Shown: positions 44 to 9,498 of the stretch, one piece after another
Layout of the letters: every line of letters begins with the position of its first letter
How positions within the stretch are numbered: the first letter of the stretch is position 1
NCBI GenBank assembly: GCA_030603495.1
Contig: JAUVXR010000002.1
Location: 88,603-152,602, forward strand
Direction of reading: 5' to 3'
Source of the DNA: a bacterium
Lineage (GTDB): Bacteria > Armatimonadota > Zipacnadia > Zipacnadales > Zipacnadaceae
DNA: 64,000 nucleotides
The notes under the pieces: generated by a model
Seen by the model: the letters and a program-made list of their open reading frames with translations, nothing else
The model's database searches: none
Told to the model about the DNA's origin: nothing
Position numbers and translations under genes: made by a program

Positions 44-131
44 TGGTGCCGAGGGCGGGATTCGAACCCGCACGAACCTTGCGGTCACTAGCCCCTCAAG
101 CTAGCGTGTCTGCCAATTCCACCACCTCGGC
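44..131 (-). tRNA. tRNA-Leu (anticodon GAG)
   Basis: The minus strand folds as a class II tRNA. The acceptor stem is GCCGAGG/CCTCGGC with discriminator A and an encoded CCA. The anticodon stem CTAGC/GCTAG encloses the loop TTGAGGG, giving anticodon GAG. A variable arm and the T-loop GTTCGAATC are present. The length is 88 nt including CCA. A near-consensus promoter lies directly upstream. tRNA genes often serve as integration sites, which is relevant to the accessory cassette that follows at 0.57-3.4 kb. Confidence 0.95.
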
Positions 132-567: not shown

Positions 568-1773
568 CTAGCTGCTTCCTTGCCAAACGCGCTCGAGGAC
601 GAACCCCCTCGCAGCGTGAAGCGCAGACAAAGCAGAGCGATTGACATCGATGAAGTTGCCAAAATCGCGATCTTGTTCACGCACGCCGAGACGGTGAAGC
701 TGGTCTATCTCTGCCTGAGCGTCGTCAAGCAAAGCAAGGTGGGCCTCGAACGTCTCTCTGTACGAGCCCCTTGAAGCTAGGGAGCATTGCCTGTGCAGGC
801 ACTGCAAGTAGTGTCGATACGATTGCTGCTCAGAATAGTCTGTAGACGTTGGCTGAGCACCAGAGAAAAGCACGTCAGCATAGTCTGAGCCGAGGTCCAC
901 GTCGGGCCGAAGCGAATCGAGCGCGCCATCCCTGTAGGCTATGTCCAGGAAAGGCACTTTGAATTCGGACAACGCTTGCGGACAGTAGTACCACTTTGCC
1001 TTGCGCTTTATGTCGCCAGGTTGACGCTCGTGAAACTTCTCAGGCGCGAACGAACGCACATTAAGCCAAGTGCCGGATGCGATAGCGTCCACGCGTGCTG
1101 TAGCGAGGCAGAGCATCTGATGGCTGCCATAACCGAGGAGCACGTCCTTGTCTTGCAGCTTCAACCCAGCGCACAGAATCAGGAGATTGCCGAGCCACAT
1201 TGAGTCGTCAACTAGGTATTGGGTCGCTGGATGCTCTGGGACGATGTAAACTCCGCCTACATCCCAGGCTTCGGCGGCATTTAGTGCCATCTCAATCTGA
1301 TCCTCGAATCGGAGTGCTTCAGCGGAAAGGCACAACGTTGCAATGCGAGGCCTATCGGTTACCAGATTTGCGGCCTCGTCGATGACCGTGCTCTGCACCG
1401 CCAACCAGTCATCATCGACACGTTCACCATAGAGTCCCGGGACCACGAATCTGTCCGCACACGCTGAGTCGTTCAAAGCCAGAAGACGCTGCAACAAGTC
1501 AACGAGGGCCGAACCTCCATCCAACATGCTTGTGGCGAAGTCGTCAGGCCAATAGTCGTGATTGACAAGTCGATGATGCGTCGCTCGTGGCTCGAAGAAC
1601 TGCGGATCCAGAAGGTTGCGGCCTCCGCATTTCACAATTTCTGAACCGAAGTGTTGGATCTGCTTGCGGGTCAGATCGCGAGGGCTTAGGATTACCGTAG
1701 CCTCTTCCCAACGCTCCAGCAGATGGCGGCAGTGTGCCATCATCCCATAGCCGAGCTGAAGGTAGAGTTCCAC
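568..1773 (-). CDS. TGT-like TIM-barrel protein of a kinase/nuclease cassette
   Basis: This 401-residue protein has no obvious signal peptide or membrane segment. I do not recognise it by name. Alternating hydrophobic strands (TVILSPRDL, RNLLDPQFF, DRFVVPGLYG, RIATLCLSAE, GGVYIVPEHP, DVLLGYGSHQM, RVDAIASGTW) suggest a TIM barrel. The late segment LLGYGSHQML followed by DAIASGTW resembles the glycine-rich end of tRNA-guanine transglycosylases (LMGVGTPEDL). The classical Cys3-His zinc site of TGT is not clear. It is the last gene of a three-gene operon and starts 12 bp after the kinase gene. A role in modifying or recognising nucleic acid is inference. Confidence 0.6.
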   Translation of the reverse strand: MELYLQLGYGMMAHCRHLLERWEEATVILSPRDLTRKQIQHFGSEIVKCGGRNLLDPQFFEPRATHHRLVNHDYWPDDFATSMLDGGSALVDLLQRLLALNDSACADRFVVPGLYGERVDDDWLAVQSTVIDEAANLVTDRPRIATLCLSAEALRFEDQIEMALNAAEAWDVGGVYIVPEHPATQYLVDDSMWLGNLLILCAGLKLQDKDVLLGYGSHQMLCLATARVDAIASGTWLNVRSFAPEKFHERQPGDIKRKAKWYYCPQALSEFKVPFLDIAYRDGALDSLRPDVDLGSDYADVLFSGAQPTSTDYSEQQSYRHYLQCLHRQCSLASRGSYRETFEAHLALLDDAQAEIDQLHRLGVREQDRDFGNFIDVNRSALSALHAARGFVLERVWQGSS

Positions 1774-1785
1774 GAGCTTGCCTCC

Positions 1786-2655
1786 TTAACTCTCGTCCAG
1801 GTTCATTACCGCGCATATCGCGTCAAACCACTGCTTGGCCTGAGCGGCCGACGGCGGGCGCCGAGAGGGGTACTCATCCATCAGCACGGCAAAGAAGCCG
1901 CCCAATTGATTCTCTGGATCTTCGGGAATCTCAAGCGCCGGAGTGGTCATCTTTTCGGTTCTGCGCAGTATGTCCAATTGATCTCTAGCCCCGTCTGCGA
2001 AAGGATGCACGCCCAAAAGACATTCGTACGCCACCACGCCAATCGCGAACAGGTCCGCACGGATGTCGATCTTCTTCTTCAGATTGCGGAATTGCTCAGG
2101 AGCAGCGTATCCTGGTGTGTGAGGGCCGAACTGCGCTTCTGTCGGCGTTATGGACGTCTTGGCAAGATGCCGGGCGATCCCGAAGTCCAGAAGCCTAAAA
2201 GACGCATCTGGGCAAACCATGATGTTTTCCGGCTTAATGTCTCGATGGACTATTTTCTGTTCCTCCATCGCCACAGCCGCCTCAAGCAATACCCTGACCA
2301 GTTTCAGAACGGTCGGCGTGCAGAGCCTCTGCTTTGCCTTTAGCTCGTTCCGAAGCGTCACGCCTTCGATGAACTCCTCAACGATGTAGACAGCGCAACC
2401 GTCGACACGCTCAAATGCTCCCGAACCATATAACCGTGCTGTATTGGGGATTTCACACACTGTTGCCACTTCGACCTCACGTTCCAGTCTCAGTCGTTCG
2501 TCGGAATCCGACTCCGGCAGGACCTTTATCACAACCTTGCCATGGTCCTCGTGCACGCCATAGAAAACTGTCCTCTGTCCGCCGCGATCCAGTAGAGTAA
2601 CCGCGCTAGTCTTGGGAATATTGGCCTCAACCTCCTGGGCGTTCATCTCTTGCAT
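1786..2655 (-). CDS. Hanks-type serine/threonine protein kinase
   Basis: The protein has 289 residues and is a soluble kinase domain alone, without PASTA or membrane segments. Visible motifs are the ATP lysine in VVIK (K44), the catalytic HRDIKPEN (137-144), DFG (157-159) and the APE-like AAPEQ (184-188). The glycine-rich loop is unusual (LLDRGGQRTVFYG). All essential catalytic residues are present, so it should be active. It is sandwiched with 12-bp gaps between a predicted nuclease and a TGT-like protein, which implies that phosphorylation controls one of these partners. It could start at the first ATG or at the ATG three codons later. Confidence 0.9.
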   Translation of the reverse strand: MQEMNAQEVEANIPKTSAVTLLDRGGQRTVFYGVHEDHGKVVIKVLPESDSDERLRLEREVEVATVCEIPNTARLYGSGAFERVDGCAVYIVEEFIEGVTLRNELKAKQRLCTPTVLKLVRVLLEAAVAMEEQKIVHRDIKPENIMVCPDASFRLLDFGIARHLAKTSITPTEAQFGPHTPGYAAPEQFRNLKKKIDIRADLFAIGVVAYECLLGVHPFADGARDQLDILRRTEKMTTPALEIPEDPENQLGGFFAVLMDEYPSRRPPSAAQAKQWFDAICAVMNLDES

Positions 2656-2667
2656 GGATTTCCCCCG

Positions 2668-3384
2668 TTAACTGCTCTGAAGACGCCGGCCTATCCATTC
2701 GTTGAACAGCCATGAGCCATAGGAAGCGGGAATGTGGCCCTTTCGAGCGCTCTCCAGGCGACGCACTCGACCGCCGTTGAGCAGTAGTATCCCCACGCCG
2801 GTTCGACGTGAACGGTCCAAAGCCGTACCGCTGGGGCTCTCGATGGGCGACAGGACATAGGATTGTGACGCGAACCACTGGTCAAGCTGGGCTTGCCGAA
2901 AAGCATTGCGCCAGTTCTTCATTTTCGCTTCCACAGCCACAATTGAACGGAGACCGAACACCCATTTGAGGGGCTTGGGCATCCATTTGCCTCCCGATCG
3001 CGTGATCATATTGGCATCAAGGAGCCTCTCCAGCGTGCCCAGAAGTGTTCTTGGGTCGACACCAAGCGCGCCAATCAACATGCGCACATCGGCACCCTTC
3101 ACACCCACAAGATGATGCATCACCTTGAGATCCACTGGCTTGAGTTCTAGTCGTGTCGCTGGCCAGCGAAAGGCCCTTGGCATATATTGGACAGCAACAA
3201 GATCAGGGAATCCACTGTCCATCTGAGGCTCATGGAAAAGCGCTACATCGCCCTTCTGCCACCGGAAGCAAGCAGGGACAAACTCCTTGAAGTCCTCAAC
3301 TAGCTCAGCTTCGGGTCCCGCTGCCCCGTTGCGGGCCGCGAGGCCAATGCCGGGATTGCTTCCCCGGAATTCGATGATGTTCAT
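2668..3384 (-). CDS. Predicted PD-(D/E)XK nuclease with winged-helix insert
   Basis: Counting from the ATG at 3384, the protein has 238 residues. FPDLVAVQ (D61) and VEAKMKNW (E152, K154), followed by AFRQAQLDQW, look like the D, ExK and Q motifs of the PD-(D/E)XK fold. Between them, residues 88-135 (VMHHLVGVKGADVRML to LLDANMITRSGGKW) resemble a winged helix. The longer reading frame begins at 3405, but that ATG lies inside the -10 box, and AAGGAG at 3391-3396 suits the ATG at 3384. It is the first gene of the kinase cassette. Nuclease activity is inferred from motifs only; a non-catalytic DNA sensor is possible. Confidence 0.65.
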   Translation of the reverse strand: MNIIEFRGSNPGIGLAARNGAAGPEAELVEDFKEFVPACFRWQKGDVALFHEPQMDSGFPDLVAVQYMPRAFRWPATRLELKPVDLKVMHHLVGVKGADVRMLIGALGVDPRTLLGTLERLLDANMITRSGGKWMPKPLKWVFGLRSIVAVEAKMKNWRNAFRQAQLDQWFASQSYVLSPIESPSGTALDRSRRTGVGILLLNGGRVRRLESARKGHIPASYGSWLFNEWIGRRLQSS

Positions 3385-3400
3385 CATCAGCTCCTTCTTT

Positions 3401-3430
3401 ACCATAGCACTCCTATTTATGGCTTGTCAA
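3401..3430 (-). promoter_or_regulatory. Promoter of the nuclease-kinase-TGT-like cassette
   Basis: On the minus strand, -35 TTGACA (3425-3430) and TATGGT (3401-3406) are separated by 18 nt. Transcription would begin about at 3394, giving a very short leader before the ATG at 3384. The -10 box is imperfect, so this is a moderate prediction. Confidence 0.5.
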
Positions 3431-3460: not shown

Positions 3461-4048
3461 CATATACGGAAATCTGGTCAGTCAGCGACGCAGCACCACT
3501 ACGGCGACTATAGCGACCGTCGGGCAACTACTCAAGGCCAATCACTTCCCGCCAGGAACCGCGCCAGTCTGGCGGTCGTCTGCACCAATAGGGCGGTTGC
3601 GTACGCTCTGCCAAATGGCGCACCGACTCTGGCAGCCGAGCCCTATTATCCGTTTGATCAAGCTGCAATGTGGTTCCCCCAGCATGGCGTCTCGCAGGCT
3701 GTCATAGGGCTTTCCTCCTTTTGGCAAACGCCCCTTGAATCGTATCTTCTCATGTTCGAGTTGCCCAAGCAACTGAAGGTATACACTCCCCAGTCAAGCA
3801 GCAGGTACCACCCTCGCGCAGCCTGGGGACTCGAAGAGCTCAGGGACAGGTGTAACCAAGGTGCAGTTGACTATTTGATAGCACCCGACCTATCGGGTTT
3901 GAGCTTTCCCTGGACGGACCCTAGATTCCGGATCATCAACCCGAGAGAAATCGCTCTTCTTGCGTCCGACCAAGCCAAGGGCTTCACCTATGTCACTACG
4001 TTCTCTGCCCACGGCAGGAGCCTGATCTTGTGCCGCGTTGACAAATAG
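3461..4048 (+). pseudogene. 5'-truncated gene, possibly the tail of a membrane glycosyltransferase
   Basis: The frame is open from the stop at 3458-3460 to TAG at about 4046. No ATG occurs before 3668, although the upstream 60 codons (for example SLAVVCTNRAVAYALPNGAP) look coding. The later part (AAMWFPQHGVSQAVIGL, DYLIAPDLSG, GRSLILCRVDK) resembles the soluble C-terminal region of large membrane glycosyltransferases of the PMT type, but this is only an impression. The N-terminal membrane part is missing and the minus-strand cassette begins just beyond it, so this looks like a gene cut by insertion of the cassette. Confidence 0.4.
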
Positions 4049-4101: not shown

Positions 4102-4419
4102 TCAGCCAGAGCGGGAGCGGAGGCCAAGCAGCAAGCCGAGCAGAAAACCGACGGCCATGGGAAGATTGTAGGCGAGCGCGCTGACCCCGGCTTGCAGCGC
4201 ATCCCCAGCCAGACCCGGGACGGGCTTCAAATGCTCAAAAAAGGCCGCCCAGTCCCACTCGACCAGACCGTAGTAGCCGAGGATCTGGACCGCGATGAAC
4301 AGGACAACAACCAGACAGCCCAGCGCCCGTGCTGCCGACTTCAATGCCAGCACGGCCAGCCAGCCCAGCAGTATGCCGAGCGCTGCGCTTACTATGATTG
4401 AGACTACGTAACTGGGCAT
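4102..4419 (-). CDS. FUN14-like small membrane protein
   Basis: The 105-residue protein has three hydrophobic stretches: about 5-30 (VVSIIVSAALGILLGWLAVL), 33-51 (LGCLVVVLFIAVQILGYYG) and a C-terminal one (LPMAVGFLLGLLLGLRSR). The middle block FIAVQILGYYGLVEWDW resembles the FUN14 family pattern of a helix followed by GYI.+.W. Bacterial members are of unknown function. It ends in basic residues. No neighbouring gene points to a role. Confidence 0.65.
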   Translation of the reverse strand: MPSYVVSIIVSAALGILLGWLAVLALKSAARALGCLVVVLFIAVQILGYYGLVEWDWAAFFEHLKPVPGLAGDALQAGVSALAYNLPMAVGFLLGLLLGLRSRSG

Positions 4420-4477
4420 CTGTGATCACAGAGAAGTGGGTTCGCGCCACGCTAGGAGGCGGCCTGGGGACCCCAGA

Positions 4478-6898
4478 TCATCTAGTCGCGTACACATGCA
4501 CATCGTGCGGAGCAAAACTGTCTTGGAAGGTGCCGATGGGTGCAGTGAAGTCAGCCCTAGGCGAACCCAATCCCGACGTTCGGACCTCGACGTGTTCATC
4601 TGGGCTTGGTTCGCCGCGGGTGCCCTGATCGTTGCACGTGATCGCGCGGTGCTCAAACATAACACTTAGCTGGCGCGCTGCAATGTCGGGCAGAGCAAAG
4701 TCCGCTATGACACCCCGGTCTGACGTATTGACCACGACAATGTAGTCGCCGCCGTCGTAGTGCCAGGCGGCCAGATGCAGATCACCGTCGCTGGCCGTCG
4801 GCAGCAGGCGGTGTTTCCCCTGCAAGAACACCGGCGAGAGCCACTGCAGCTCGCGGTTGATCTGGGGCAGCGTTGCCCACAGGTCGGGGGCATCCTGACG
4901 CAGCCGGAACCGCCTCGTGCCCGGATAGCTGGGAATATCATACCCGTAATAGATCAACCCGGTAGCGCCGTGGACAAGCGCCAGATATGTCATCGCCCGC
5001 ACCTCGGCCGAAGTCGGCTGCCGGCCGGAGTCGCTGGGGTCCAGGGCCGCGTCCTCGTACCAGGCCCGCCCGGCCGCCTGGATGACCGCCCACACTGGGC
5101 GCTCGCCATCGGTTGCCTCCACCGCCGCAGCGACGATACGTGCTAGAGAAGTTATCGGCGCCCTGGGCACGGGCAGTGACCAAGCAACCACAATGTCGGC
5201 GAAGTCGCTATAGTAGGGCAGCAGTGAGGGCGAACTAAGGGCCATCAGCGTGGGGTGCGCTGGACTCATTATTTCTAGCTCCTGACACACGGCCGCAGCC
5301 ACTTCCGGCGGGGCGGTCTGCTGATCTGGCCGCGGCAGCACGTACCAGCCCAGGAGGGCCGAATTGCCCCCGAACTTGCGCACCAGGTTTTCCCACAAGT
5401 CGCGGCTCGGAGCGGGAATGCCGAGGCCTGTCCGGGGTCCAAGTATGCGTGGCGAAGAGACAATTAGGGATATGCCTTGGTTGTGCGCTTCATCGGCGAA
5501 GGCATAGCTGGCCCGGGACGAGGGAACAACCGCGAAGTTGAAACCGGCACCGGCGATAGGTGCCAGGTCAGTCGACTCGCAAACGTAATAGATGCCGCGT
5601 GGCAATATGGGCATGCCGTTCAGCCACAGCCGACGGTGACGATCGTAGCCTACTTCCGCGGCGGAGGGCGGTAGCCGTTTCAGCACAAGCTGCAAGCTCT
5701 GGCTAAGCTCACCACTGGGTGTGGCCGCCGTGATCAACGTCGTGTAGTTGCCACTGAGCAAGTTATCGGCAGACATGGTGATGACAAAGCGGGTCGGCCC
5801 AATCCGAGTAATGCCGCCGTTGTGCTCCGTCACCTTTGTTCCGGTTTCCGAGATCTCCGCAGTCAGTTCGAGTCGGCGGGCGATATTCTCAACGGCGTTT
5901 ATCTGGCCGACAATCTCCAGTGTGTCGATCGGTATGCTGGATAGGAGCGTGCTGCGGAAGGCCGGTTGGGTGAATTGAGCTTCGATCAGTCCAGGGGCAA
6001 GCGTCTGCTGGTGGTCATATATCTCGCCGCTGTCGTCGTCCCTGACTACGAGCTGGAGGGTATGGGGCAAATCGAGCGGCAAGGCGTAGTCAAGATCCAG
6101 CACACCGGTGCCGTTAGCCTTAATGCGCGCCTCTTGCTCCACCCGTTTTCCGTTGCCCCGCTGGTCTACCGCGACAAGCACTACCTGCAGCTCGCGACTA
6201 CGGGAGCTATGGTTGTCTAGACGGACGGTAGTCCGTCGCTTATTGGGCAGCTCATACACCGTTCCCTTACGCACAATCGTCGCCGCCACCTCGTCGGGGT
6301 AGGGGCGCAAGGCCACCTGGTCAACGTAGAATTTCCCCGGACCGGTAAAGCGGAGGATTGGCACCACCTGGCGCGCACCGGGGAGAGCTTCAAACTGCCA
6401 CGAGAGCAGACTCCAGTCTTTGGATTCTGGGATATTTTTGGCCTCGGCCTGCAGCGCACGGGTCTGCCACTCCTGTTCGCGGAAATCCTCGGCGAAGGTC
6501 ACCAACGACATCTGCACGTCGGGCTCCTGCTCGGTGCGATAATAGCAGGTCAACAACATCTTGTTGCTGCCCAGCTCGCTCATCTCGATCGGCGGTGCAT
6601 ACACATCGAACAGAATGAGCTGCTCGGCACTTTCCATCAGCAAGCAGTTGCGGCTCTTGTAGCCCTGCTGGACTACCCTAAGATTCGCCTGAGACCCAGG
6701 CTCGGGCGGAAAGGTACGCCAGCCGACCGGCATTCCCGCCACATCCAGCTCTTCAAATCCCCCATTTGAGAGCAGATTCCCAGCATAAGCGCCGCCAGGC
6801 AGACTGAGCAAAGATGTGATCGCCGCCAGCACCAGCACCATGCGCGTGGTTTGTCCGGCTAAGATCAGCGTTGAATAGGGACACTTGCTACGAGTCAT
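4478..6898 (-). CDS. Secreted glycoside-hydrolase-like protein
   Basis: The 806-residue protein has a signal peptide (hydrophobic core MVLVLAAITSLLSLPGGAYA, cleavage near residue 39). A domain starting with NLLSNGGFEE resembles carbohydrate-binding beta-sandwiches (about 40-200). A second beta-rich region follows. From about residue 420 there is a likely TIM barrel beginning NGMPILPRGIYYV and including GWYVLPRPD, GATGLIYYGYD and a closing beta domain (DYIVVVNTSDRG). The layout is that of glycosidase-like proteins of polysaccharide degraders. Catalytic acids cannot be assigned with confidence and no specific GH family is claimed. The start may be either the first ATG or the internal ATG that begins the hydrophobic core. 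Confidence 0.6.
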   Translation of the reverse strand: MTRSKCPYSTLILAGQTTRMVLVLAAITSLLSLPGGAYAGNLLSNGGFEELDVAGMPVGWRTFPPEPGSQANLRVVQQGYKSRNCLLMESAEQLILFDVYAPPIEMSELGSNKMLLTCYYRTEQEPDVQMSLVTFAEDFREQEWQTRALQAEAKNIPESKDWSLLSWQFEALPGARQVVPILRFTGPGKFYVDQVALRPYPDEVAATIVRKGTVYELPNKRRTTVRLDNHSSRSRELQVVLVAVDQRGNGKRVEQEARIKANGTGVLDLDYALPLDLPHTLQLVVRDDDSGEIYDHQQTLAPGLIEAQFTQPAFRSTLLSSIPIDTLEIVGQINAVENIARRLELTAEISETGTKVTEHNGGITRIGPTRFVITMSADNLLSGNYTTLITAATPSGELSQSLQLVLKRLPPSAAEVGYDRHRRLWLNGMPILPRGIYYVCESTDLAPIAGAGFNFAVVPSSRASYAFADEAHNQGISLIVSSPRILGPRTGLGIPAPSRDLWENLVRKFGGNSALLGWYVLPRPDQQTAPPEVAAAVCQELEIMSPAHPTLMALSSPSLLPYYSDFADIVVAWSLPVPRAPITSLARIVAAAVEATDGERPVWAVIQAAGRAWYEDAALDPSDSGRQPTSAEVRAMTYLALVHGATGLIYYGYDIPSYPGTRRFRLRQDAPDLWATLPQINRELQWLSPVFLQGKHRLLPTASDGDLHLAAWHYDGGDYIVVVNTSDRGVIADFALPDIAARQLSVMFEHRAITCNDQGTRGEPSPDEHVEVRTSGLGSPRADFTAPIGTFQDSFAPHDVHVYATR

Positions 6899-6971
6899 TA
6901 TCCGCCTCCGTTCTCGGCCCAGGGATTCGCGTGGCAGTTGAATCTCCTGCTACCTTGATTCACCGCAGCGG

Positions 6972-7898
6972 CTATTCTCCCTGCCCATCGGTTACCACAT
7001 AGATGTGCCGGGTCAGCCTCCCCTTGACCACCTGTACCTCTTGGTGGATGCAAAACCCCAGTTGTCGGAGCAGGCGCCGTTCGTCAGCGCCAACCACCAC
7101 GGCCATCCGCCTGACTTGGCTGCGCAGATTGAGCAGAATATCAGTGTGCAGGCCGGGAGCAACCGGGGCAGAATGGCCGTAGGGAAGATCAACCACCGCC
7201 GCATCAAAGCTTCCGGCGATAGTGCAAGCGTCACCGACGAAAATGTTGGGAGACAACCGTAGCGCCCGCAGGTTGGCAGCGGCCTGGTGAGCCAGCGCTG
7301 GGCTTATCTCCATGCCCCAGGCGTGAATACCGTCAGCGAGGGCCTCAGCCACCACTGTTCCACTGCCACAGCACGGATCTAGCAGAAGATCGCCAGGAGC
7401 CGCCACTAGGTTCACCAGCGCCCGGGCCATCCGGGGCGCCAGCGCATGAGAGTAATGGTAAGGACGCCGAACCCCAGCCCGCCAGCGCTGTGCGCTGCGC
7501 GAGATGATAGGCCCGAAATGCCAGCCATCATGGGTGACCACCACCGCAAGCTCCGTTCGCGGATAGTCAAGGTTAGGACGGCCCGATATCAAGTCAGCGA
7601 TAGCTTTCTTCAACTCAGTCGCGCTAACTGCCGCCTTAGGCCCAGGCCGGAAGACCTCGATACGGTAGCCCTCAAGCTGAAGCTCAAGCTGGCCTACGGC
7701 CTCTTGCAATTCGGGCCAGTCGCTACCGGTGGCGACTTGCTCGCCGCACAAGCGGATGTAGGCAGCGCGAGTAACGTCTGCACCCATCGCCCCCACAGCA
7801 ACTCGGCCTTGGGGTGTGCAACCAGCCACCGCCCACAACTCGGCGCGAGCCAGATCGAGTTCCTCGTCCGGCCCCATCAGCAGATAGAAATGGGCCAA
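6972..7898 (-). CDS. THUMP-type RNA N2-guanosine methyltransferase (Trm11/TrmG10-like)
   Basis: The 308-residue protein has a Rossmann methyltransferase half beginning DLLLDPCCGSGTVVAEAL (motif I), then WGMEISPALAHQAAANL and the motif IV equivalent DLPYG in place of (N/D)PPY. The N-terminal half matches the leader region of Trm11/TrmG10-like enzymes, which add methyl groups to tRNA guanosine using S-adenosylmethionine. The substrate guanosine position cannot be read from sequence. The frame begins with TTG immediately after a GGGGGTGA stretch; an ATG seven codons later is an alternative start. Confidence 0.75.
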   Translation of the reverse strand: MAHFYLLMGPDEELDLARAELWAVAGCTPQGRVAVGAMGADVTRAAYIRLCGEQVATGSDWPELQEAVGQLELQLEGYRIEVFRPGPKAAVSATELKKAIADLISGRPNLDYPRTELAVVVTHDGWHFGPIISRSAQRWRAGVRRPYHYSHALAPRMARALVNLVAAPGDLLLDPCCGSGTVVAEALADGIHAWGMEISPALAHQAAANLRALRLSPNIFVGDACTIAGSFDAAVVDLPYGHSAPVAPGLHTDILLNLRSQVRRMAVVVGADERRLLRQLGFCIHQEVQVVKGRLTRHIYVVTDGQGE

Positions 7899-8016
7899 TC
7901 ACCCCCACCCCCTGGGGGACTGCCAACGCAGGTGCAACTGCAGCAATAGTGAGGCTCGCCGCCGAGTCTGGGGCACGGCCCAACCAGTGCGCTATGCGGG
8001 CCCCCGCCGGCAGACG

Positions 8017-9498
8017 TCAGCAATCTTCCTCGGCCTCAGAGACTGGTGTCTCCTGCTGGAGAGAGTCCGTCCGGTGTAAGCCTTGCATCACGATTCGGCG
8101 AAAGGCCATCACCAACTCAGGGTCGAATCCGCTGCCGGCTCGGGCTAGGATATCATGCAGAGCCTCCTGCGGCGACAGACTCGCCTGACGAGCCGGGTTG
8201 TGCGGATTGATGAGCCGATCATAGGCATCGGCGATGGCGATTATGCGTGCGTCGTAGGGAATGGCGTCGCCCTTGAGGCTCTCGGGGAAGCCCGTGCCGT
8301 CCCAGCGCTCGTGGTGGTGGGTAACCACCGAGAGCACAGGTTGCAGGAAGGTCACGGGCGCCAGAATGCTCTGGCCGATGAGGGGGTGCATCCGATAGAA
8401 GGCCTGCTCAGGTTCGCCAGGTTCGCCGTTGGCAGGGAGGTCGTCCCGGTCGAGCCCGATCTTGCCGACGTCATGGAGGATCGAGCCGAAGCGCAGCAGT
8501 TCGCGTTGCTCCTCGGGTATCCCCACTTCTGCGGCAATCTGGTCAACGATGTCAGTGACCCGTTCAGAGTGACTGTAAGTATCGCTATCTTTGGCCTCAA
8601 TCGCCCGGGTCAAGGTGCGGACGGTCTCGTAGTAGCTGCGGCGGATATCCTCGTACAGTTCGGCGTTCTCGATGGCCACGGAGGCCTGGTGGGCGAAAGC
8701 AGTAAGCAGATCCACTTCCCGCTGGACAAATCTGCGCGGGGACTTGGCGTAGACCCGCACCACCCCCAACACCTTGTCTTTGGTCTCCAAAGGCACAATG
8801 AGCACGGAGGTCAGGCCAGCTTGCCTGGCGGCTTCAGGGTACTGAAAATGAGGGTCAGTGCGCACGTCGTAGATCTGCTCAGCGTGGCCGCTGAGCACCC
8901 GTTGATCCACCACACTGCCTGGCACCAGCACTGGGCCTTTTTGCCAGTAGTCCTCGCCCAGCCCAGCGCTAGCCGTGAGCTTTAGCTCGCCGGTCTCCTC
9001 GTCGAGCAACCGGATGTTGCATGCCTTAGCATCCATAACGCGCATAGCGTGGGAAGTGATAAGCTCAAGCACCTGCTTGATGCGCAAGGTCGAGGTTATA
9101 CTGCGGGCTACTTCATAGAGCGTCCGGGCCTCCACCACCCGCCGTTTGAGTTCGGACGATAGTCGCGAGGCAACGATGCCTACCACATAGAAGATGAGCA
9201 TGCGCAGGATCATATTGAACAGATTCTGCAAGCTCGAATCGGCTGAGGAGAGCCCCTGTCCAGATTCGGTAGGCATCCACCAACCGCAGCCAAGCCCAGC
9301 TATCAGGGAGACGATTATCGCCCCGGGGTCACCAAACATGAAAGCGGCCCACAGTATGGGCAGATAGTAGAAGTGCACAGCATAGCTGTCGGTCCCGGCC
9401 AAGTACACCAGCCATGTGACAAACGCCATGGCCAGGGCCAGCACCATCAGGGATACTATGGTTCCTGTTCGGCTACGCTTCATCGCTGCCAAGACCAT
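8017..9498 (-). CDS. Membrane GAF / HD-GYP signalling protein
   Basis: The 493-residue protein begins with about four hydrophobic helices (residues 10-120), continues with a GAF domain (around ARSITSTLRIKQVLELI to ENAELYEDI) and ends in an HD-GYP phosphodiesterase domain. Visible motifs are LHDVGKIGL, HPLIGQ, HHERWDGTGFP and DAYDRL. The signature is GFP rather than GYP. The family hydrolyses cyclic di-GMP. The start is odd: AGGAGG almost abuts the first ATG, so the TTG two codons later may be the real start. A stand-alone gene upstream of metG. Confidence 0.88.
   Translation of the reverse strand: MVLAAMKRSRTGTIVSLMVLALAMAFVTWLVYLAGTDSYAVHFYYLPILWAAFMFGDPGAIIVSLIAGLGCGWWMPTESGQGLSSADSSLQNLFNMILRMLIFYVVGIVASRLSSELKRRVVEARTLYEVARSITSTLRIKQVLELITSHAMRVMDAKACNIRLLDEETGELKLTASAGLGEDYWQKGPVLVPGSVVDQRVLSGHAEQIYDVRTDPHFQYPEAARQAGLTSVLIVPLETKDKVLGVVRVYAKSPRRFVQREVDLLTAFAHQASVAIENAELYEDIRRSYYETVRTLTRAIEAKDSDTYSHSERVTDIVDQIAAEVGIPEEQRELLRFGSILHDVGKIGLDRDDLPANGEPGEPEQAFYRMHPLIGQSILAPVTFLQPVLSVVTHHHERWDGTGFPESLKGDAIPYDARIIAIADAYDRLINPHNPARQASLSPQEALHDILARAGSGFDPELVMAFRRIVMQGLHRTDSLQQETPVSEAEEDC

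Follow-up and report, generated by a model that had tools for sequence, protein, structure and literature searches.

A window of 64,000 nucleotides from an armatimonadotal bacterium (contig JAUVXR010000002.1; all coordinates refer to this whole stretch) carries, at 568–3430 and entirely on the minus strand, three adjacent genes predicted to encode a PD-(D/E)XK nuclease (gene 1), a Ser/Thr kinase (gene 2) and a TIM barrel with the fold of tRNA-guanine transglycosylase (TGT) that lacks the nucleophilic aspartate (gene 3). Some 50 loci contain the trio; they span many bacterial phyla and include a haloarchaeal plasmid and five viral contigs. We put at about one in two the probability that it is a mobile, self-contained, restriction-like anti-invader module of three proteins, in which the pseudo-TGT would recognise, the kinase switch and the nuclease cut. 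The first-pass annotation of this DNA, made from the sequence alone, had reported such a cassette and knew of no described system with the combination; we likewise found no description in PADLOC 2.0.0 (2023), NCBIfam 20, Pfam or open-access papers (subscription papers and preprints lay outside the search), and regard the trio as an as yet undescribed module assembled from known parts. The observation is confirmed, and it withstood the refutation test that the first-pass annotation had set, since the genes do co-occur elsewhere and the predicted structures do contain a nuclease fold and a TIM barrel. Its interpretation as a defence or DNA/tRNA-modification module is partly supported: genomic context favours defence, and modification fares worse, with the nucleophile absent and no preQ0 or other 7-deazaguanine genes linked.

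The open reading frames (ORFs) lie as first described, separated by two gaps of 12 bp and adjoining a tRNA-Leu gene. Their distribution indicates a unit of inheritance. A tblastn search recovered the same three genes in three further Armatimonadota genomes and in the archaeon Natribaculum breve, there on a plasmid. By alignment scan, 32 loci were identified in genomes (Desulfobacterota, Planctomycetes, Myxococcota, Acidobacteria, Spirochaetes, Clostridia, Proteobacteria and archaea) and five on viral contigs. Wherever the contig extends far enough, at genomic and viral loci alike, the TGT-like gene has both the nuclease and the kinase gene as neighbours. To these, profile searches added twelve new loci in Planctomycetes and Clostridia and, in the window's phylum, three divergent ones. 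The twelve served as an out-of-sample test: an adjacent nuclease gene is present in 12/12 and an intact kinase gene in 10/12 (one of the ten cut by a contig end), and of the remaining two, one has a kinase C-lobe fused to the barrel and one has no kinase. Three gene orders occur, with the nuclease gene first, last on the same strand, or convergent with the barrel gene. Within the main clade, comparison of the three families by their pairwise identity matrices gives correlations of 0.84, 0.79 and 0.86, whereas none of 2000 permutations exceeded 0.35. Genes this short could be adjacent by chance in one genome, but chance neighbours without a joint function would not be conserved at some 50 loci in many phyla and three gene orders, with matching distance matrices (r = 0.79–0.86); the association is therefore not due to chance, and that explanation is refuted. 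The co-occurrence in unrelated genomes that the first-pass annotation had proposed to look for is thus widespread.

The window copy has its nearest relatives in Desulfuromusa and planctomycetes and not within its own phylum, indicating that all three genes moved together by horizontal transfer. Carriers make up 7/291 of the sampled genomes in the window's phylum, 12/392 in Planctomycetes, 2/391 in the clostridial class and 1/385 in Alphaproteobacteria. The G+C content of the trio (0.558) is unremarkable for the window and thus gives no evidence of recent transfer from composition; that evidence comes from the phylogeny. On one side lies tRNA-Leu(gag) (44–131, minus strand), the last of a cluster of five tRNAs (Cys-Gly-Gly-Val-Leu) and outside the module; a tRNA was the sole match in an Rfam scan. 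On the other side, most of the genomes compared from the genus and family share synteny over the block at 4102–9498. None of the six other genomes in the genus has the trio, although in those compared the flank is syntenic, and the cassette is therefore an accessory insertion at the tRNA cluster. Grouping of 364 neighbouring proteins by single linkage revealed no recurrent fourth gene, and no other protein was found at more than four of the loci. Two IMG/VR contigs (L040 and L041) have in common genes for proteins of about 1360 and 138 amino acids directly upstream of the trio, the larger of which (in L040) has no PADLOC match.

Taken alone, gene 1 (2668–3405, minus strand; 245 amino acids from the first ATG) matched no Pfam, PADLOC or NCBIfam model. 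Its AlphaFold2 model (pLDDT, the predicted local distance difference test score, 95.7) contains a PD-(D/E)XK core, alpha-beta-beta-beta-alpha-beta by DSSP, and its structural matches other than winged helices in VIA alignments include the restriction enzyme PaqCI (Z 10.4 over 131 residues) and SPO1766 (Z 9.9 over 129 residues). Residues E32, D68, E159, K161 and Q171 are invariant across 33 aligned relatives, and divergent members retain the E-D-ExK-Q set, with the exceptions of one Q-to-R change, one truncated start and one split gene. Fold and catalytic residues together support its prediction as a PD-(D/E)XK nuclease with an inserted winged helix, in agreement with the first-pass annotation. 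Between the catalytic D68 (3202–3204) and the ExK motif E159-A-K161 (2923–2931), both on the minus strand and conserved in relatives, lies the winged-helix insert (about residues 86–150; 2956–3150), which is of the Lrp/AsnC/MarR/TrmB type (profile match to the Lrp/AsnC winged helix-turn-helix, 2.5e-6). Six relatives (L086, L154–L158) have only 13–33 amino acids at this position and keep the nuclease residues, which indicates that the insert is optional and that selection maintains the nuclease core. In Nannocystis poenicansa (L012, 6006–8051), the nuclease gene is split: profile residues 19–79 and 72–251 lie about 1.3 kb apart, separated by two minus-strand ORFs (158 and 223 amino acids) as if interrupted by an insertion element, with the kinase and barrel genes intact.

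Gene 2 (1786–2655, minus strand; 289 amino acids) certainly encodes a kinase. It matches Pfam Pkinase (PF00069) at 2.9e-32 and PknB at 1.6e-48, with PknB and StkP as the nearest kinases, and forms a complete Hanks-type catalytic domain without transmembrane or sensor parts. As first annotated, all catalytic residues are in place: K44, E60, H137-R138-D139 (the HRD motif; 2239–2247, minus strand), N144, D157 and G159 are invariant in the 33 aligned kinases. The activation loop carries S-[LI]-T-x-T, which we take to match the PknB autophosphorylation sites T171/T173; T170 is present in 32/33 and T172 in 29/33, and divergent members keep only T170. Since the kinase has no sensor of its own, its input would have to come from a partner protein. 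The best PADLOC match is PD-T4-6 (1.3e-45, 253/292 profile positions), a model on which any Hanks kinase scores; the similarity is at the domain level alone, and PADLOC treats PD-T4-6 as a stand-alone system. Some loci depart from the usual kinase arrangement. A 481-amino-acid ORF (L159, 2051–3496) joins the end of a kinase C-lobe to the barrel, with the N-lobe missing and a helicase fragment adjoining; this is a remnant, and it shows that kinase and barrel can share one frame. Another locus (L157, 5574–7208) has TGT-like and nuclease genes without a kinase gene, next to an upstream neighbour that resembles a glutamate-1-semialdehyde aminotransferase gene, and a third (L151, 4475–7066) encodes a second protein with a matching kinase domain, of 863 amino acids, 1.9 kb from the trio.

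Gene 3 (568–1773, minus strand; 401 amino acids, GTG start) and the other members of its family, 36 in all, matched no Pfam, PADLOC (including Dpd) or NCBIfam model. The Pfam TGT family (PF01702) matches 0/36, and the PF01702 match in the host is a separate housekeeping tgt. The AlphaFold2 model (pLDDT 93.4) is a TIM barrel for which, in VIA alignments, all of the 50 best PDB entries are TGTs (Z 19.1–21.0 over 291–317 residues), the best being archaeosine TGT 1IQ8 (Z 21.0, root-mean-square deviation 3.5, 310 residues, 12% identity); the resemblance to TGT noted from the sequence is thus borne out by the predicted structure. TGT was singled out by VIA re-alignment only, not by the ranking of Foldseek, which put generic TIM barrels (glycosidases and xylanases) ahead of it, and whole-profile comparison with canonical TGT by hhalign was not significant.

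The catalytic residues of bacterial TGT are Asp102 and Asp280 (Zymomonas mobilis numbering; PMC6165067). Unrestricted profile comparison (hhalign) with 11 phage DpdA proteins gave a single match of 22 residues, positioned on the catalytic aspartate, QHFGSEIVKCGGRNLLDPQFF = QSYVDAMRADGAKIFLDSGAFS (E 1.9e-4 for the D56 segment), from which we take D56 (1606–1608, minus strand; invariant in 36/36) to be the equivalent of Asp102 and of DpdA D72. A segment comparison pairs A-S-G-T-W (232–236) with D-S-S-S-W of DpdA, and bacterial TGT gives the same register, neither being significant alone; A232 (1078–1080, minus strand) would therefore occupy the position of the nucleophile, Asp280 of TGT and D215 of DpdA. 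Among the 36 aligned proteins this position is Ala in 30, Cys in 5 and Gly in 1, and in the later loci it is Ala, Gly or Thr; it is never Asp. Because the nucleophilic aspartate is absent in every relative examined, gene 3 probably does not encode a base-exchanging enzyme. An ordinary TGT or DpdA was rejected on the missing nucleophile together with the lack of any match to PF01702 or DpdA models. Near-invariant columns contain no conserved Cys set corresponding to the Cys/His zinc site of TGT. They do contain Q6, G8, S30, D56-P57-Q58, P112, Y176, G234, N238 and R240, at strand ends around the mouth of the modelled barrel, which therefore probably binds a ligand. We read the protein as a putative pseudo-TGT recognition subunit. 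In Desulfosarcina widdelii (G296, C1:30075–30911), a second, divergent PF01702 match beside the housekeeping tgt is possibly a DpdA-like gene.

From these parts, a mechanism can be proposed. The pseudo-TGT would use its conserved barrel-mouth residues to recognise a nucleobase or a nucleic acid (modified bases in phage DNA and tRNA are examples) and would relay what it has recognised to the kinase. Consisting of no more than a PknB-like catalytic domain, the kinase would act as the switch and license or release the nuclease through phosphorylation. The PD-(D/E)XK protein would be the effector, presumably cutting DNA, with the winged helix as an optional aid to DNA binding. It is possible, though we regard it as rather less than an even bet, that the trio represents a novel kind of prokaryotic immune system: a tRNA/DNA-guanine transglycosylase that has lost its catalytic role would serve as the sensor of a nucleobase or nucleic acid and, through protein phosphorylation, would signal to a PD-(D/E)XK nuclease. 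A pseudo-TGT would then have an immune role for the first time, and the kinase–nuclease module would be one that also plugs into bacteriophage exclusion (BREX) systems.

Each component has relatives in known systems. The closest functioning parallel is PglW of type 2 BREX and phage growth limitation (Pgl) systems, in which a NERD nuclease and a kinase are fused and phage resistance depends on the kinase activity (PMC12839542, PMC4365076). PglW and the NERD-kinase variants of DndF likewise bring together a PD-(D/E)XK nuclease, an active Ser/Thr kinase and winged helices in a defence setting; however, PglW is one protein of 1400–1600 amino acids (NERD nuclease, pseudokinase and ATPase-like C terminus), whereas the trio consists of separate small proteins with a TGT-fold partner. 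Gene 3 has in common with DpdA of the Dpd system a TGT-superfamily barrel, the short profile match at the catalytic aspartate and an occurrence with nucleases in a defence setting, but the trio has Ala for the nucleophile, includes a kinase and lacks linked preQ0, DpdB and DpdC genes. QTRT2, the noncatalytic subunit of eukaryotic TGT (PMC6165067), also combines a TGT fold with a degenerate active site and is kept as a partner protein; it lost the Asp102 equivalent and has Glu for the nucleophile, whereas gene 3 keeps the former, loses the latter and has no conserved zinc site. A TGT-family protein also occurs in BREX-related capture (BRC) loci with TGT and GNAT (PMC12839542), which centre on HerA/FtsK, PglZ, DUF6079 and DUF4007, none of which the trio needs, and for which no kinase is reported.

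The neighbourhoods of the trio support a defence role, and at some loci they include known defence genes, as the first-pass annotation had anticipated. At two planctomycete loci (L010 and L150), it lies inside a BREX operon in the order BrxC-PglXI-[nuclease-kinase-barrel]-BrxHI-PglZ. Elsewhere, a DUF1156 methylase and a PLD-helicase are directly upstream and BrxC is downstream (L024), a PglX/type IIG protein is encoded 64 bp upstream (L033), a type I restriction enzyme is nearby (L036), and we interpret a protein near L006/L032 as Eco57I-like. The BREX core (BrxC, PglX and PglZ) was seen at L010 and L150 and partly at L024, and not beside the window copy. L010 and L150 are close relatives, so that the embedding in BREX counts as one event. 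Their trios are 87–95% identical and the surrounding BREX proteins 67–85%; the trio may move between BREX operons on its own. The TGT-like gene of L010 is out of frame at 9180–9245, within a run of T, relative to the intact L150 copy (95% identical), which reflects either a sequencing error or a recent mutation.

Several points weigh against a self-contained anti-invader module. The link between kinase and nuclease is one of gene neighbourhood alone, and the mapping of TGT residues draws on the fold and on short profile alignments, one alone of which is locally significant. The conserved mouth of the barrel (Q6, S30, D56-P57-Q58, Y176, N238 and R240) could be a different active site. At 1e-10, 119 trio-flank proteins matched 371 PADLOC models, compared with 16 matched by 117 control proteins from elsewhere in the same genomes; this count is driven by a few BREX or restriction–modification (RM) loci, helicases and methylases matching many models each, and it supports enrichment without measuring it well. 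No defence system can be recognised in the flanks of most loci, and 10/10 of the large neighbours tested gave nothing.

The main rival is a modification-type module, in which the TGT-like protein still acts on bases, by exchange or by D56-alone hydrolysis as in a monofunctional glycosylase, so that DNA or tRNA is marked or damaged and a kinase-regulated nuclease cuts marked or unmarked DNA. The near-invariance of the barrel-mouth residues, including D56, is what an enzyme would display, and DpdA is a precedent in DNA modification. Furthermore, queC and the housekeeping tgt are each found in 19/20 carriers, so that 7-deazaguanine bases are available; the presence of either gene does not discriminate. 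Against this rival, at least one carrier, an Alkaliphilus metagenome-assembled genome (G301) that may be incomplete, shows no real QueC. The rival is also weakened by the lack of the nucleophilic aspartate in all relatives and by neighbour clustering, in which no preQ0, DpdB or DpdC gene recurs beside the trio, and we consider it unlikely.

A further possibility is that the trio is an accessory regulator of larger systems, a split PglW-like unit serving BREX or RM hosts and found alone elsewhere only as a remnant. Its position within BREX operons and beside PglX or methylases (L024 and L033) fits this view, as does the requirement for PglW kinase activity in Pgl phage resistance (PMC4365076), but BREX or RM genes lie within 9 kb at a minority of loci only, the BREX cases amount to a single event, and no recognisable system was found among the neighbours tested beside the window, Luteimonas or Desulfosarcina copies; we hold it to be improbable. 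We would give equally little weight to a stress-response or toxin–antitoxin unit, in which the kinase, triggered within the cell by, for instance, queuine, the state of tRNA or damage to DNA, phosphorylates the winged-helix nuclease as a regulator or suicide nuclease, phage defence being incidental. Although the winged helix is of the Lrp/MarR/TrmB type and CapK/CapS are a known kinase–repressor pair that answers DNA damage and controls immune operons (PMC13373217), six relatives drop the winged helix and keep the nuclease residues, which points to DNA cleavage and not repression as the retained function.

For two of the three families, Pfam, PADLOC and NCBIfam contain no model that matches over the full length, and genome annotation therefore misses the module. 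Were it a defence system, the known repertoire would gain a restriction module with phospho-signalling that spreads between phyla and is able to sit in BREX. It would also offer a direct test of whether TGT-fold proteins act as base sensors instead of base-exchange enzymes, and a test of the role of a kinase in restriction, a question that PglW poses as well.

Other features concern the expression and surroundings of the window copy. Upstream of the trio, a divergent ORF of 126 amino acids (3668–4048, plus strand) has no Pfam, PADLOC or NCBIfam match. A candidate sigma-70-like promoter (3430–3401, minus strand; TTGACA-18-TATGGT, with TG ahead of the second hexamer) is a consensus match only, at 10/12 positions; because it abuts the start codon of gene 1, the single promoter that had been assigned to the trio is only plausible. 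Gene 1 more likely starts at the ATG at 3384, which AAGGAG precedes by six bases; counted from there, the residues numbered above from the first ATG as D68, E159 and K161 become D61, E152 and K154, the numbering of the first-pass annotation. Each gap carries a purine-rich stretch resembling a ribosome-binding site, that between genes 1 and 2 at 2656–2667 and that between genes 2 and 3 at 1774–1785, the latter containing GGAGG.

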